From Streptomyces sp. NRRL F-2664 (GTDB lineage Bacteria > Actinomycetota > Actinomycetes > Streptomycetales > Streptomycetaceae), in contig NZ_JOFX01000003.1 in assembly GCF_000719345.1 (NCBI RefSeq), positions 62,001 through 126,000 on the forward strand: DNA of 64,000 nt, given 5' to 3'. Both the position numbers and the translations under genes were made by a program. The notes below the pieces were generated by a model, which was not told the DNA's origin, did no database searches, and worked only from the letters and a program-made list of their open reading frames with translations. Shown here piece after piece: positions 1,749-3,842 of this stretch. Position 1 is the first letter of the stretch. The number at the start of each line of letters is the position of its first letter.

Positions 1749-2414
1749 TCAGTCCGTCGTCTCGCCGGGCGGCCGGGGCTCGGCCCGCATCAGGAGGTGC
1801 CCCCGGCGGAAGCGCTCCTGCGCGCCGGGCTCGCGCAGCATCCGCCCGACCTCGGTGAAGCCGGCTTCCCGGGCCAGCCGGGCGAGTTCGTCGATCGGCC
1901 ACCGGTAGGCGGTGGTCACCTTGTGGTCGAAGGCCGCCACCGGGCCGCCTTCGGACTCGAAGAAGGCCAGCAGGAGCGGACTGCCCGGAGCGAGCACCCT
2001 GCGGAACTCCGCGAGGTACGAGGGCAGTTCCCGCGGTGGGGCGTGGATCACCGAGTACCAGGACACGATGCCGCCCAGTTCACCGTCGGCCAGGCCCAAG
2101 GCGTCCATCGATCCGACGTCGAACCGCAGGTGAGGGTGGGCCGCACGAGCGAAGTCGACCATGGCGGGCGAGAGGTCCACGCCGAAGGCGTCGAGTCCCA
2201 GGCCACGGAGATGCGCCGTCACATAGCCGGGGCCGCAGCCCAGTTCGGCGACGGGCCCGGTTGCGGCGGCCCGCGCGTGGTCGGCGAACGCGGTCAGGAC
2301 GGAGCGGTCCAGAGGATGTCCGTCGAGGTGGTCGCGGGCGAGGTCCGCGTAGGCGGCGACCACCGAGTCGTAGGCCTCGCCGGTCGCCCGGAGGTACGCG
2401 GGCAGCTCGTTCAC
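1749..2414 (-). CDS. Class I SAM-dependent methyltransferase
   Basis: A 221-residue methyltransferase with the SAM-binding glycine loop VAELGCGPGYVTAHL around residues 55-69, the acidic ribose contact GVDLSPAMVDFAR, a motif III-like FDVGSMDALGLADG and the post-core strand LLLAFFES. This is the family usually called methyltransferase domain 25/11, whose small-molecule substrate cannot be read from sequence. It begins with GTG, 10 bases after the CutA-like gene, with GAGG eight bases upstream, so it is probably the last gene of the 1749-3505 minus-strand unit. Confidence 0.85.
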   Translation of the reverse strand: MNELPAYLRATGEAYDSVVAAYADLARDHLDGHPLDRSVLTAFADHARAAATGPVAELGCGPGYVTAHLRGLGLDAFGVDLSPAMVDFARAAHPHLRFDVGSMDALGLADGELGGIVSWYSVIHAPPRELPSYLAEFRRVLAPGSPLLLAFFESEGGPVAAFDHKVTTAYRWPIDELARLAREAGFTEVGRMLREPGAQERFRRGHLLMRAEPRPPGETTD

Positions 2415-2424
2415 CGGGGAGGCC

Positions 2425-2754
2425 TCAGCTTTCCCGGCGCGCGGTCTCCCGCACCGCCCACGCCAGGTACGCCTGCGTGGTCCCGGCGGCCGGCAGCACG
2501 ATCCACGGGGGCAGGTCCGACGGGTGGCGGTCGTGCACCCATACCTCCAGGTCCGCGACCCGCTCCGCGGTCGTCGTGAAGGTGACCCGGTAGCCCCGTT
2601 CGTGCCGGAGGGCGTCCCCGCTCCGGTGGAAGAGGGTCATCCGCGCCTCGACGTCGGCCGCGGCCGCCATCCTGGCCTCCACCGCGCCCTGCGCGATCTC
2701 GTAGGCCTGCGCCTCGTCGTTCAGGGTCGTGTGCGCTGTCACCATGCCGGCCAC
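2425..2754 (-). CDS. CutA-like protein (divergent divalent-ion tolerance family)
   Basis: About 109 residues. The C-terminal half carries the CutA1 signature in diverged form: a RHPSDLPPWIVLPAAGTTQAYLAWA segment matching the family pattern of HPYEvPeiialP followed by a small loop and a YLxWi helix. CutA1 proteins form very stable ferredoxin-like trimers linked to metal tolerance; their activity remains unclear. The GTG at 2754 is preceded by AGGAG five bases upstream and is preferred over the ATG three codons later. It follows the ADF-like gene by 67 bases and precedes the methyltransferase by 10, which suggests cotranscription. The N-terminal half is weakly conserved, so identification rests mainly on the C-terminal motif. 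Confidence 0.65.
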   Translation of the reverse strand: MAGMVTAHTTLNDEAQAYEIAQGAVEARMAAAADVEARMTLFHRSGDALRHERGYRVTFTTTAERVADLEVWVHDRHPSDLPPWIVLPAAGTTQAYLAWAVRETARRES

Positions 2755-2821
2755 GCCGCTCCTCCTCGGTCGGGTCGCCCCCACCCTACGGCCGGACCGG
2801 CGGGGGGAGAGGACCGGCCCC

Positions 2822-3223
2822 TCAACCCGCGAGCGCGACCAGCCTGCGGTAGGCGAGTTGGTCCGCGCGGCGGGCGGTGAGGTGGACGTGGACGTCGGGG
2901 AGGTAGTCCTTCAGGGCGGAATAGCCGGCCGTGTACGTGTCCTCCTGTGCGGCGGCGGCCGGCGGCATCCACAGGATCAGCAGGAGTTGGTTGCGGCGCG
3001 TGCCCTCCGGGCTGGCGAAGGACAGCTCGTGCAGGACCAGCCGGGGCTGGTCCGAGGGCAGTCCCTGCACGAGTTCGTCGTGGGTCAGATTCGCTTCGAG
3101 CTCCGGGACCAGAACGTCCGGCGGGCCCTCCTGGCGGAGGACCACGGTGTTGACCTCCCGCAGTTCCCGCAGGTGGTGGACGGCGGCGACGCCGGCCTCC
3201 GACAGGCCGGTCGGGCTGCTCAC
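2822..3223 (-). CDS. ADF/cofilin-like (ADF-H fold) protein in a bacterium
   Basis: The 133 residues align end to end with eukaryotic ADF/cofilins. An N-terminal helix (GLSEAGVAAVHHLREL) takes the place of the cofilin SGVAVxDE helix. Next come LTHDELVQGLPSDQPRLVL (cofilin: SYDxFLxxLPENDCxYAxYDF), then PEGTRRNQLLLILWMPPAAA (cofilin: EGKRSKIVFFTWSPDTAP), then the long helix ending in SALKDYL (cofilin: SSKDALRRAL) and a final strand-helix VHVHLTAR to ALAG. The length matches yeast cofilin (143). In the main actin-binding helix the basic RSKM is replaced by QEDT, so classical actin binding is doubtful. GTG start; the CBM48 gene ends 6 bp upstream, implying cotranscription. Fold assignment is by eye and fairly strong; function is unknown. 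Confidence 0.72.
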   Translation of the reverse strand: MSSPTGLSEAGVAAVHHLRELREVNTVVLRQEGPPDVLVPELEANLTHDELVQGLPSDQPRLVLHELSFASPEGTRRNQLLLILWMPPAAAAQEDTYTAGYSALKDYLPDVHVHLTARRADQLAYRRLVALAG

Positions 3224-3229
3224 CGGGCT

Positions 3230-3505
3230 TCAGGTGTGGATGCGGCCGTTGGTGCCGTCGTGGGCGTCGGCTTGTTCGTCGTCGAACCAGTAGTCGCCCG
3301 CCGCGAGGTAGCGGAAGGAGTGGGCGCTGTGGGCGGGCAGCGCGACCGTCGCGGCCCGGGTGCCGTCGCCGCGGGGCTCCAGGGGGTGGGCGGCGGGGTT
3401 CCAGTGGTTGAAGTCCCCGACGACACTGACCGGCCCGGCCGGGGTCTCCGCGGGGAGGACGAAGGTGACCTGCGTGCGGCCCTTGAGCTTCTTGCGTTCG
3501 AGCAC
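3230..3505 (-). CDS. Single-domain CBM48 / isoamylase early-set (glycogen-binding-like) protein
   Basis: A 91-residue protein that is almost entirely one CBM48 immunoglobulin-like domain: VTFVLPAE, VSVVGDFNHWNP near residues 27-38, a LPAHSAHSFRYL strand, and YWFDDEQADAH. The GDFNxW and W-DDE motifs are those of isoamylase/branching-enzyme N-terminal domains and of the AMPK beta-subunit glycogen-binding domain. There is no catalytic domain, so it probably binds an alpha-glucan or acts as an adaptor. The GTG start has GGAG eight bases upstream. It heads the minus-strand unit whose second gene is the ADF-like protein. Confidence 0.82.
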   Translation of the reverse strand: MLERKKLKGRTQVTFVLPAETPAGPVSVVGDFNHWNPAAHPLEPRGDGTRAATVALPAHSAHSFRYLAAGDYWFDDEQADAHDGTNGRIHT

Positions 3506-3842
3506 GGGGTGGACTCCAGCCGTGGGGGACGGGAAACCGGCCCGTGCATCCTCACGCCGACGCCCGTGCGGTGCGGCGGTACCGGGCCGCAGTGCGGACA
3601 GAAGTCACCCGGGCGGCGGCCTGCGCGCGGCCGGGTCGGGGGCCGCGCACCTCTGCTCCTCGCTCCCCGAGCCGTGCGGACGCCGACCGGCACCGTCCGT
3701 GCGGCCGGTGTACGCCACCCGGAGCGACTCGGCGGCCGTGCCGCTGCCGTGCGGCGGCTGCGGGGCGGCGGGATGTTAGAGATGGGGCCGGGGCTGCTCG
3801 ACTCCGCAGACCGGCCGGCCCGCACGAGGAACGAGGGGCGCC
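3506..3842. other. Intergenic region between divergent genes
   Basis: A 337-base gap between the CBM48 gene (minus strand) and the short-chain dehydrogenase (plus strand). It should hold both promoters. No open frame here has family resemblance, and I see no convincing -35/-10 pair, palindrome or riboswitch. Confidence 0.4.

Follow-up and report, generated by a model that had tools for sequence, protein, structure and literature searches.

The 64,000-nucleotide stretch of Streptomyces DNA analysed here (the window) encodes a cofilin-fold protein whose lineage has lost or reversed most of the basic residues used by cofilins to hold actin. Our leading, still tentative, interpretation is that this protein is a domesticated, actin-independent ADF-H binding module of a Streptomyces accessory pool of stress-type genes, made in the window together with a CBM48-type protein. 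Under this interpretation, an ADF-H protein of the eukaryotic kind would have been taken in by a bacterium and then put to new use. The window protein would be a small cytosolic binding module, produced from one transcript with the CBM48-type protein, and its remodelled acidic helix-3 face would hold a bacterial partner, whose identity is the weakest step of the proposal. It may act in stress or dormancy, perhaps as a tether that attaches something to stored alpha-glucan, or as a participant in STAS-type partner switching. A fuller scenario, in which Streptomyces acquired a cofilin fold of the eukaryotic type, whose actin-binding face was then reversed, and now uses it as a stress-type adaptor working together with a free-standing glucan-binding protein and, in a single species, a STAS regulator, seems to us possible but doubtful. 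If the proposal is true, this would be a bacterial ADF-H protein with a purpose unrelated to actin and a new target, and the mushroom-like bacterial cofilins would show the look of an unchanged copy.

A bacterial member of the ADF-H family

In textbooks, ADF-H proteins appear as regulators of actin in eukaryotes. According to profile searches and structure prediction, the window protein (Table 1) is a true member of this family. The preliminary description had aligned all 133 residues with cofilins, and the observation was confirmed, far beyond chance: the frame is sound (GC of 0.79/0.44/0.91 at the three codon positions), the motifs given there follow one another as claimed, and the protein matches Pfam Cofilin_ADF (PF00241) with 43.8 bits against a cut-off of 22.4 (E 2.5e-11), residues 14-127 pairing with positions 4-121 of the 125-position profile. 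Cofilin_ADF was the sole Pfam family at E <= 10, and an NCBIfam search with the protein gave no matching model. A sequence search of the PDB returned 26 matches at E <= 10, all of them ADF/cofilins, glia maturation factors or other ADF-H proteins (one, AGAP012056-PA, carries that name alone there and is called an ADF in another result), with actophorin as the best match (E 4.1e-6). The AlphaFold2 model (pLDDT 91) displays helices and strands in the complete ADF-H order, with actophorin and yeast cofilin as the closest solved structures, so the ADF-H fold first proposed from the letters is borne out by both sequence profile and predicted structure.

Two other origins or roles were discarded. 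A phage origin of the ADF gene was rejected with 0 matches in 50,697 phage records, and a defence system was rejected with zero PADLOC matches, the anti-phage defence models at E <= 0.1 recognising none of the ADF, CBM48 and CutA proteins.

Table 1. Coordinates of the features discussed, in window positions
Feature	Position	Strand	Remarks
Class I methyltransferase-like gene, next after CutA1, same direction	1749..2414	minus	Pfam Methyltransf_25 61.4 bits
CutA1-type protein downstream of ADF	2425..2784	minus	Pfam CutA1 57.9 bits; gap 37 or 67 bp by start choice
ADF-H (cofilin-fold) protein, 133 aa	2822..3223	minus	GTG start at 3223, TGA at 2824-2822
Gap from CBM48 stop (TGA) to ADF start (GTG), 6 bp	3224..3229 (codons span 3221-3232)	minus	Same frame, two codons between
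Small CBM48/AMPK-beta-type glucan-binding-like protein, 91 aa	3230..3505	minus	GTG start; sub-cut-off Pfam matches
GAGGATG upstream of CBM48 gene	3547..3553	minus	7-mer in 17/32 CBM48 upstream regions
CGGGTGAC upstream of CBM48 gene	3604..3611	minus	Its 7-mer CGGGTGA in 13/32 CBM48 upstream regions

Distribution and lineages of bacterial cofilins

Cofilin in Streptomyces is already on record, and no work on the window's lineage was found in the PMC full texts searched. In the parts of Yutin 2009 (PMC2651865) considered here, a table gives for cofilin 'homolog only in Streptomyces (112791749), probable HGT'; the protein is thus likewise recognised there as a cofilin in Streptomyces, as a single protein, with no analysis in those parts of its actin site, lineage or neighbours. 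The PDB holds entry 5IVU, 'Streptomyces griseoflavus Cofilin', released in 2017, and NCBI annotation names many relatives 'cofilin family protein'. A search of the PMC full-text literature revealed no other recognisable paper on a bacterial or Streptomyces cofilin among the matches listed. Given these records, the preliminary description needs correction on this point: a bacterial cofilin had been recorded before.

Its actinobacterial scope also proved too wide: within bacteria the family was found in Streptomycetaceae only, the single positive among the 396 genomes of a phylum-level sample being the window's own. PF00241 turned up in 18 of the 392 Streptomyces genomes sampled and in 13 of 297 sampled Streptomycetaceae genomes, spread over 4 of 17 genera. 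The protein database held 149 relatives and, among the at least 120 listed, every one with a named organism came from Streptomyces, as did all six plasmid records with ADF relatives.

The Streptomycetaceae proteins fall into at least two lineages. With the most cofilin-like Streptomyces ADF (L020) as query, proteins of Streptomyces, Embleya and Kitasatospora were retrieved along with agaric cofilins, the Lyophyllum shimeji cofilin being 66% identical to it. In a tree of 62 rows, in which outgroups are sparse (two yeasts), 24 branches stay open and the bootstrap is unsettled, 18 bacterial rows including 5IVU grouped with 12 mushroom rows (95/94). Seventeen of these 18 joined Lyophyllum and Termitomyces (87/88), which points to a transfer from mushrooms to bacteria. 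The S. noursei row stood apart from the other 17, and a single origin of all 18 was not rejected (p 0.19). The window's ADF belongs to a separate clade of 24 rows (99/99), which sits on a stem 0.7 changes per site long and has, in this analysis, members from Streptomycetaceae alone. A common origin of both bacterial lineages alone was weakly rejected (p 0.0375, with sparse outgroups), and their union with the mushrooms as one clade was not (p 0.44). The window's clade thus lies elsewhere than 5IVU and the 'actin-binding ADF family protein' entries of Streptomyces, Embleya and Kitasatospora, which sit among the mushroom cofilins and have kept the lysine, or have an arginine, at yeast position 98.

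The CBM48-type neighbour

As the preliminary description had it, 6 bp separate the end of the CBM48-type gene from the ADF start, and the two genes share a frame (Table 1). The naming of this neighbour is less secure than stated there. The window's copy reached 20.3 bits with AMPK1_CBM (PF16561, cut-off 26.8) and 19.0 bits with CBM_48 (PF02922, cut-off 22.4), below both Pfam cut-offs, while 23 of 28 CBM48 relatives matched AMPK1_CBM at E <= 0.01. It also resembled the N-terminal region of GlgB (phmmer, 8e-5), and a Foldseek search with its model (pLDDT 75) gave glycogen branching enzymes as best matches (E 1.5e-3), with none at E <= 0.001. The likeness to the CBM48 and AMPK beta glycogen-binding domains is therefore carried by sub-threshold profiles and by GlgB in both sequence and fold searches; unlike those domains, the neighbour is a stand-alone protein of 91 residues. 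The 28 copies share 81% mean column identity, and W35, R65, W73 and N86 are invariant in all of them. By eye, these positions would pair with AMPK residues W100, K126, W133 and N150, which we take to form the AMPK beta glucan site.

This family is multicopy. The genome of the window has five matches, of which one contains an internal stop and four lie away from any ADF gene, and each of the 11 CBM48-holding genomes with a window-type ADF had 2 to 10 matches. The copies elsewhere occupy many sites with similar neighbours, and none was found in viral contigs. A charged protein of 60-75 residues (MGGMQDKRQEPGKGREEQ...-like) adjoins many CBM48 genes (L103, L106, L117, L119, L121, L014).

Recurrence of the CBM48-ADF pair

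To what extent the two genes belong together was assessed over 22 loci, chromosomal and plasmid, from the window's group. At 11 of them ADF has a CBM48-type gene no more than 1.5 kb away, in all four relative orientations; the pair recurs among accessory genes located in chromosome arms and on linear plasmids. It is upstream in the same direction at about 10-162 bp in L004, L051, L052, L054 and L092 and at 6 bp in the window; in L092 the near copy is fragmentary, and an intact one lies at 1458 bp. The same arrangement recurs at 548 bp in L093 and 757 bp in L053, while the gene is upstream on the opposite strand in L057 (1244 bp), downstream in L014 (586 bp) and downstream on the opposite strand in L094 (719 bp). 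The other 11 loci have no CBM48 gene nearby, which counts against our preferred reading. One of the loci examined (L003:4800-5323) lacks the CBM48 gene, and to the eye the sequence just upstream of its ADF is similar to that upstream of the window's CBM48 gene, as if CBM48 had been deleted.

No CBM48 gene was found near ADF in the 10 sister-grade loci, in 19 hand-picked control regions of up to 20 kb each from the same or related genomes, or near ten further ADF loci (nine mushroom-type or unplaced; the tenth, L097, is sister-grade and duplicates L017). For this family, which the preliminary description had named beforehand, the enrichment near ADF over controls gave p 0.0027. A STAS-like family was present near ADF in 9 of 32 loci versus 0 of 19 controls (p 0.009, uncorrected). 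In this comparison, which covered 40 other families occurring in at least 3 of 61 loci, with names assigned by eye, only CBM48 and the STAS-like family fell under p 0.05. The CsbD-, PRC-barrel-, HATPase- and SpoIIE-like families showed no enrichment near ADF relative to the 19 controls, a result that weighs against the stress-module reading.

At the genome level, CBM48 was present in 11 of the 12 genomes that have a window-type ADF, in 1 of 8 with a sister-grade ADF and in 10 of 94 sampled genomes lacking ADF (a denominator assuming that the 101 genomes searched for CBM48 fall within the 392-genome Streptomyces sample), a co-occurrence that is confounded by kinship. In the CBM48 tree, the copies near ADF are spread over several lineages, with 8 label changes, of which well-supported branches require 4; a count as low as this came from 40 of 500 label shuffles. 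With the ADF-near copies so spread, the pair has either formed repeatedly or often been broken. A shared accessory-gene pool could explain the pairing. The suggestion that the two proteins work together is therefore partly sustained: the neighbourhood recurs at 11 of the 22 loci and is absent from sister-grade loci and controls, but the other 11 loci lack it and most CBM48 copies lie away from ADF.

Expression, other neighbours and plasmids

Downstream of ADF, the CutA1-type gene is possibly co-transcribed with it. This gene and the methyltransferase-like gene are also found beside ADF in L003, L004 and L052. Next to them, at 320-1564 on the minus strand of the window, lies a gene for an AlaRS-type protein of at most 414 residues that matches positions 4-404 of the 552-position tRNA-synt_2c profile, the later part of the profile being missing.

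Upstream of the CBM48 gene, GAGGATG (Table 1) is a possible promoter element. No SigB-type promoter (we assume the consensus GNNT-N14-16-GGGTAY) was found in 29 regions upstream of ADF. By contrast with an expectation of 0.039 per 50 bp by chance, CGTTG occurred at -42 to -50 in 13 of 32 ADF upstream regions (35 loci less L016, which is broken, L056, a fusion, and L096, which has no start); this element may resemble an ECF-sigma promoter. It was present in 0 of 11 regions where CBM48 is upstream versus 13 of 21 otherwise (Fisher p 0.0006, kinship ignored). The window's ADF gene does not have the element, and we infer from these upstream sequences that its expression probably depends on the CBM48 transcript.

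Six plasmid matches were obtained, and a CBM48-type gene is near ADF on three of the four linear plasmids viewed: those of S. avidinii, S. goshikiensis and NBC_01296 (the last being locus L093, already among the 22 loci) carry an 'isoamylase early set domain-containing protein' 0.5-1.2 kb from ADF. On the S. longhuiensis plasmid, with a sister-grade ADF, no CBM48-type gene is listed, the plasmid gene tables being incomplete. Genes for Ku, ATP-dependent DNA ligase, STAS, ATP-binding protein, hemerythrin, CBS and PRC-barrel proteins populate the plasmid neighbourhoods of ADF, which we regard, from annotation and general background, as stress-survival cargo.

A direct link to STAS domains exists in one Streptomyces genome (G162), where a single 264-residue frame (L056:9756-10550, minus strand) combines a STAS domain (52.5 bits) with an ADF-H domain (32.4 bits), each scoring above its cut-off. 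This genome has no CBM48 match, which again counts against the proposed association. The recurrent CBM48 neighbour and the STAS fusion provide concrete candidate partners.

Alternatively, the gene could be a passenger or relic of eukaryotic derivation, drifting in variable arms and linear plasmids with no dedicated partner and meeting CBM48 through a shared mobile accessory pool. The patchy distribution described above, the position of ADF on linear plasmids beside transposases and integrases, the multiplicity of CBM48 genes in similar surroundings elsewhere, and an ADF copy with a broken reading frame in S. katrae NRRL B-16271 (L016:8001-8326, with an intact copy at L009) all agree with such drift. 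Three observations oppose it. The dN/dS ratio (NG86) ranged from 0.15 to 0.59, all below 1, in ten of ten pairs from the window's clade, so the protein is being kept; 22 alignment positions are invariant over 33 ADF sequences; and CBM48 does not appear in any of the 19 control regions. We consider drift unlikely, though the strongest competitor of the domesticated-module reading.

Loss and reversal of the actin-binding site

According to PMC3541276, yeast cofilin requires R96 and K98 for G-actin binding and R80, K82, R135 and R138 for F-actin binding. The site was compared on yeast cofilin numbering, with 15 rows representing the window's group. At position 98, lysine is found in 12 of 12 fungal rows and lysine or arginine in 18 of 18 mushroom-type bacterial rows; arginine is present in L022 and L064, which branch deepest within the window's clade, seven intermediates are mixed, and 14 of the 15 rows of the window's group have glutamate. 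Position 96 is basic (a single K) in one of the 13 window-group rows with a letter listed, and the basic helix-3 residues R96 and K98 are thus not retained by this group. The charge of segment 90-112 shifts from +2 to +4 in fungi to -1 to -5 in the window's group. The acidic QEDT in place of basic RSKM, singled out in the preliminary description, stands, with a register uncertain by one residue: the alignment puts Q-E-D at yeast 97-99, and the K98 counterpart is acidic under either register. The change from basic to acidic in the actin-contact helix, first described for one sequence, turns out to be a feature of the whole lineage.

Regarding the F-actin site, one of its four residues is kept. 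K82 is replaced by E (12 rows), A (2) or Q (1), R135 by L (13), M (1) or Q (1), and R138 falls in a gap in 14 of 15 rows, while R80 is conserved in all 15. Elsewhere on the surface, R110 has become acidic (E or D) in 11 of 15 rows, D123 is R in 10 of 15, and R109 remains R or K in at least 12 of 15. Since R80 and the basic residue at 109 persist, part of the ancestral surface survives, and both count against the reading of a module independent of actin. From these residues, no actin binding of the known kind is to be expected of the window's group, and the window protein itself would be no working actin-binding cofilin. It shares 12-22% identity with actophorin (7SOG/1AHQ) and yeast cofilin (1CFY/1COF), and differs from them in the loss or reversal of these basic residues, in being bacterial and in a genome where no eukaryote-type actin was seen.

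That last statement rests on searches with PF00022, for which true actins score in the hundreds of bits. The best match was 27.2 bits in the window's own genome (37.3 with frame neighbours) and 45.5 bits in 14 other ADF-bearing genomes, and no eukaryote-type actin was seen in any of them. The Streptomycetaceae offer a natural series, from mushroom-like cofilins with their actin residues kept, through the intermediates L022 and L064 with some kept, to the window's group with a reversed site. Such a series makes the conversion of a eukaryotic cytoskeletal domain testable in a cell where no eukaryote-type actin was seen.

The retained residues bear on another explanation, in which the protein regulates a bacterial actin-family filament, binding MreB, Mbl or a plasmid actin in the manner of cofilin with its charges swapped to suit. 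The ADF-H fold is kept in full, R80 and a basic residue at 109 are kept in most rows, and actin-family proteins of MreB level occur in 15 of 15 genomes examined, all of which would suit a filament regulator. The same actin-family genes are also present in control genomes without ADF, so no signal of co-occurrence emerges, and no actin-family gene was called beside any ADF locus examined (neighbours named by eye and partly by Pfam). We judge this explanation improbable. A weapon released against the actin of fungi, amoebae or insects is very improbable: the sister Streptomyces ADFs are mushroom-like, with actin residues kept in genomes where no eukaryote-type actin was seen, but in the window's lineage these residues are lost or reversed, and the N-terminus of the window protein (MSSPTGLSEAGVAAVHHLRE) is, by eye, unlike a signal peptide.

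Mushroom-like cofilins with their actin residues kept (L020, L023, L060, P0139-P0154) were observed in Streptomyces, Embleya and Kitasatospora, and only actin-family matches of MreB level were seen in the genomes carrying them. Six further divergent Streptomycetaceae ADF-H proteins (L021, L028, L061, L062, L063 and L067) were insecurely placed, several of them on very long branches.
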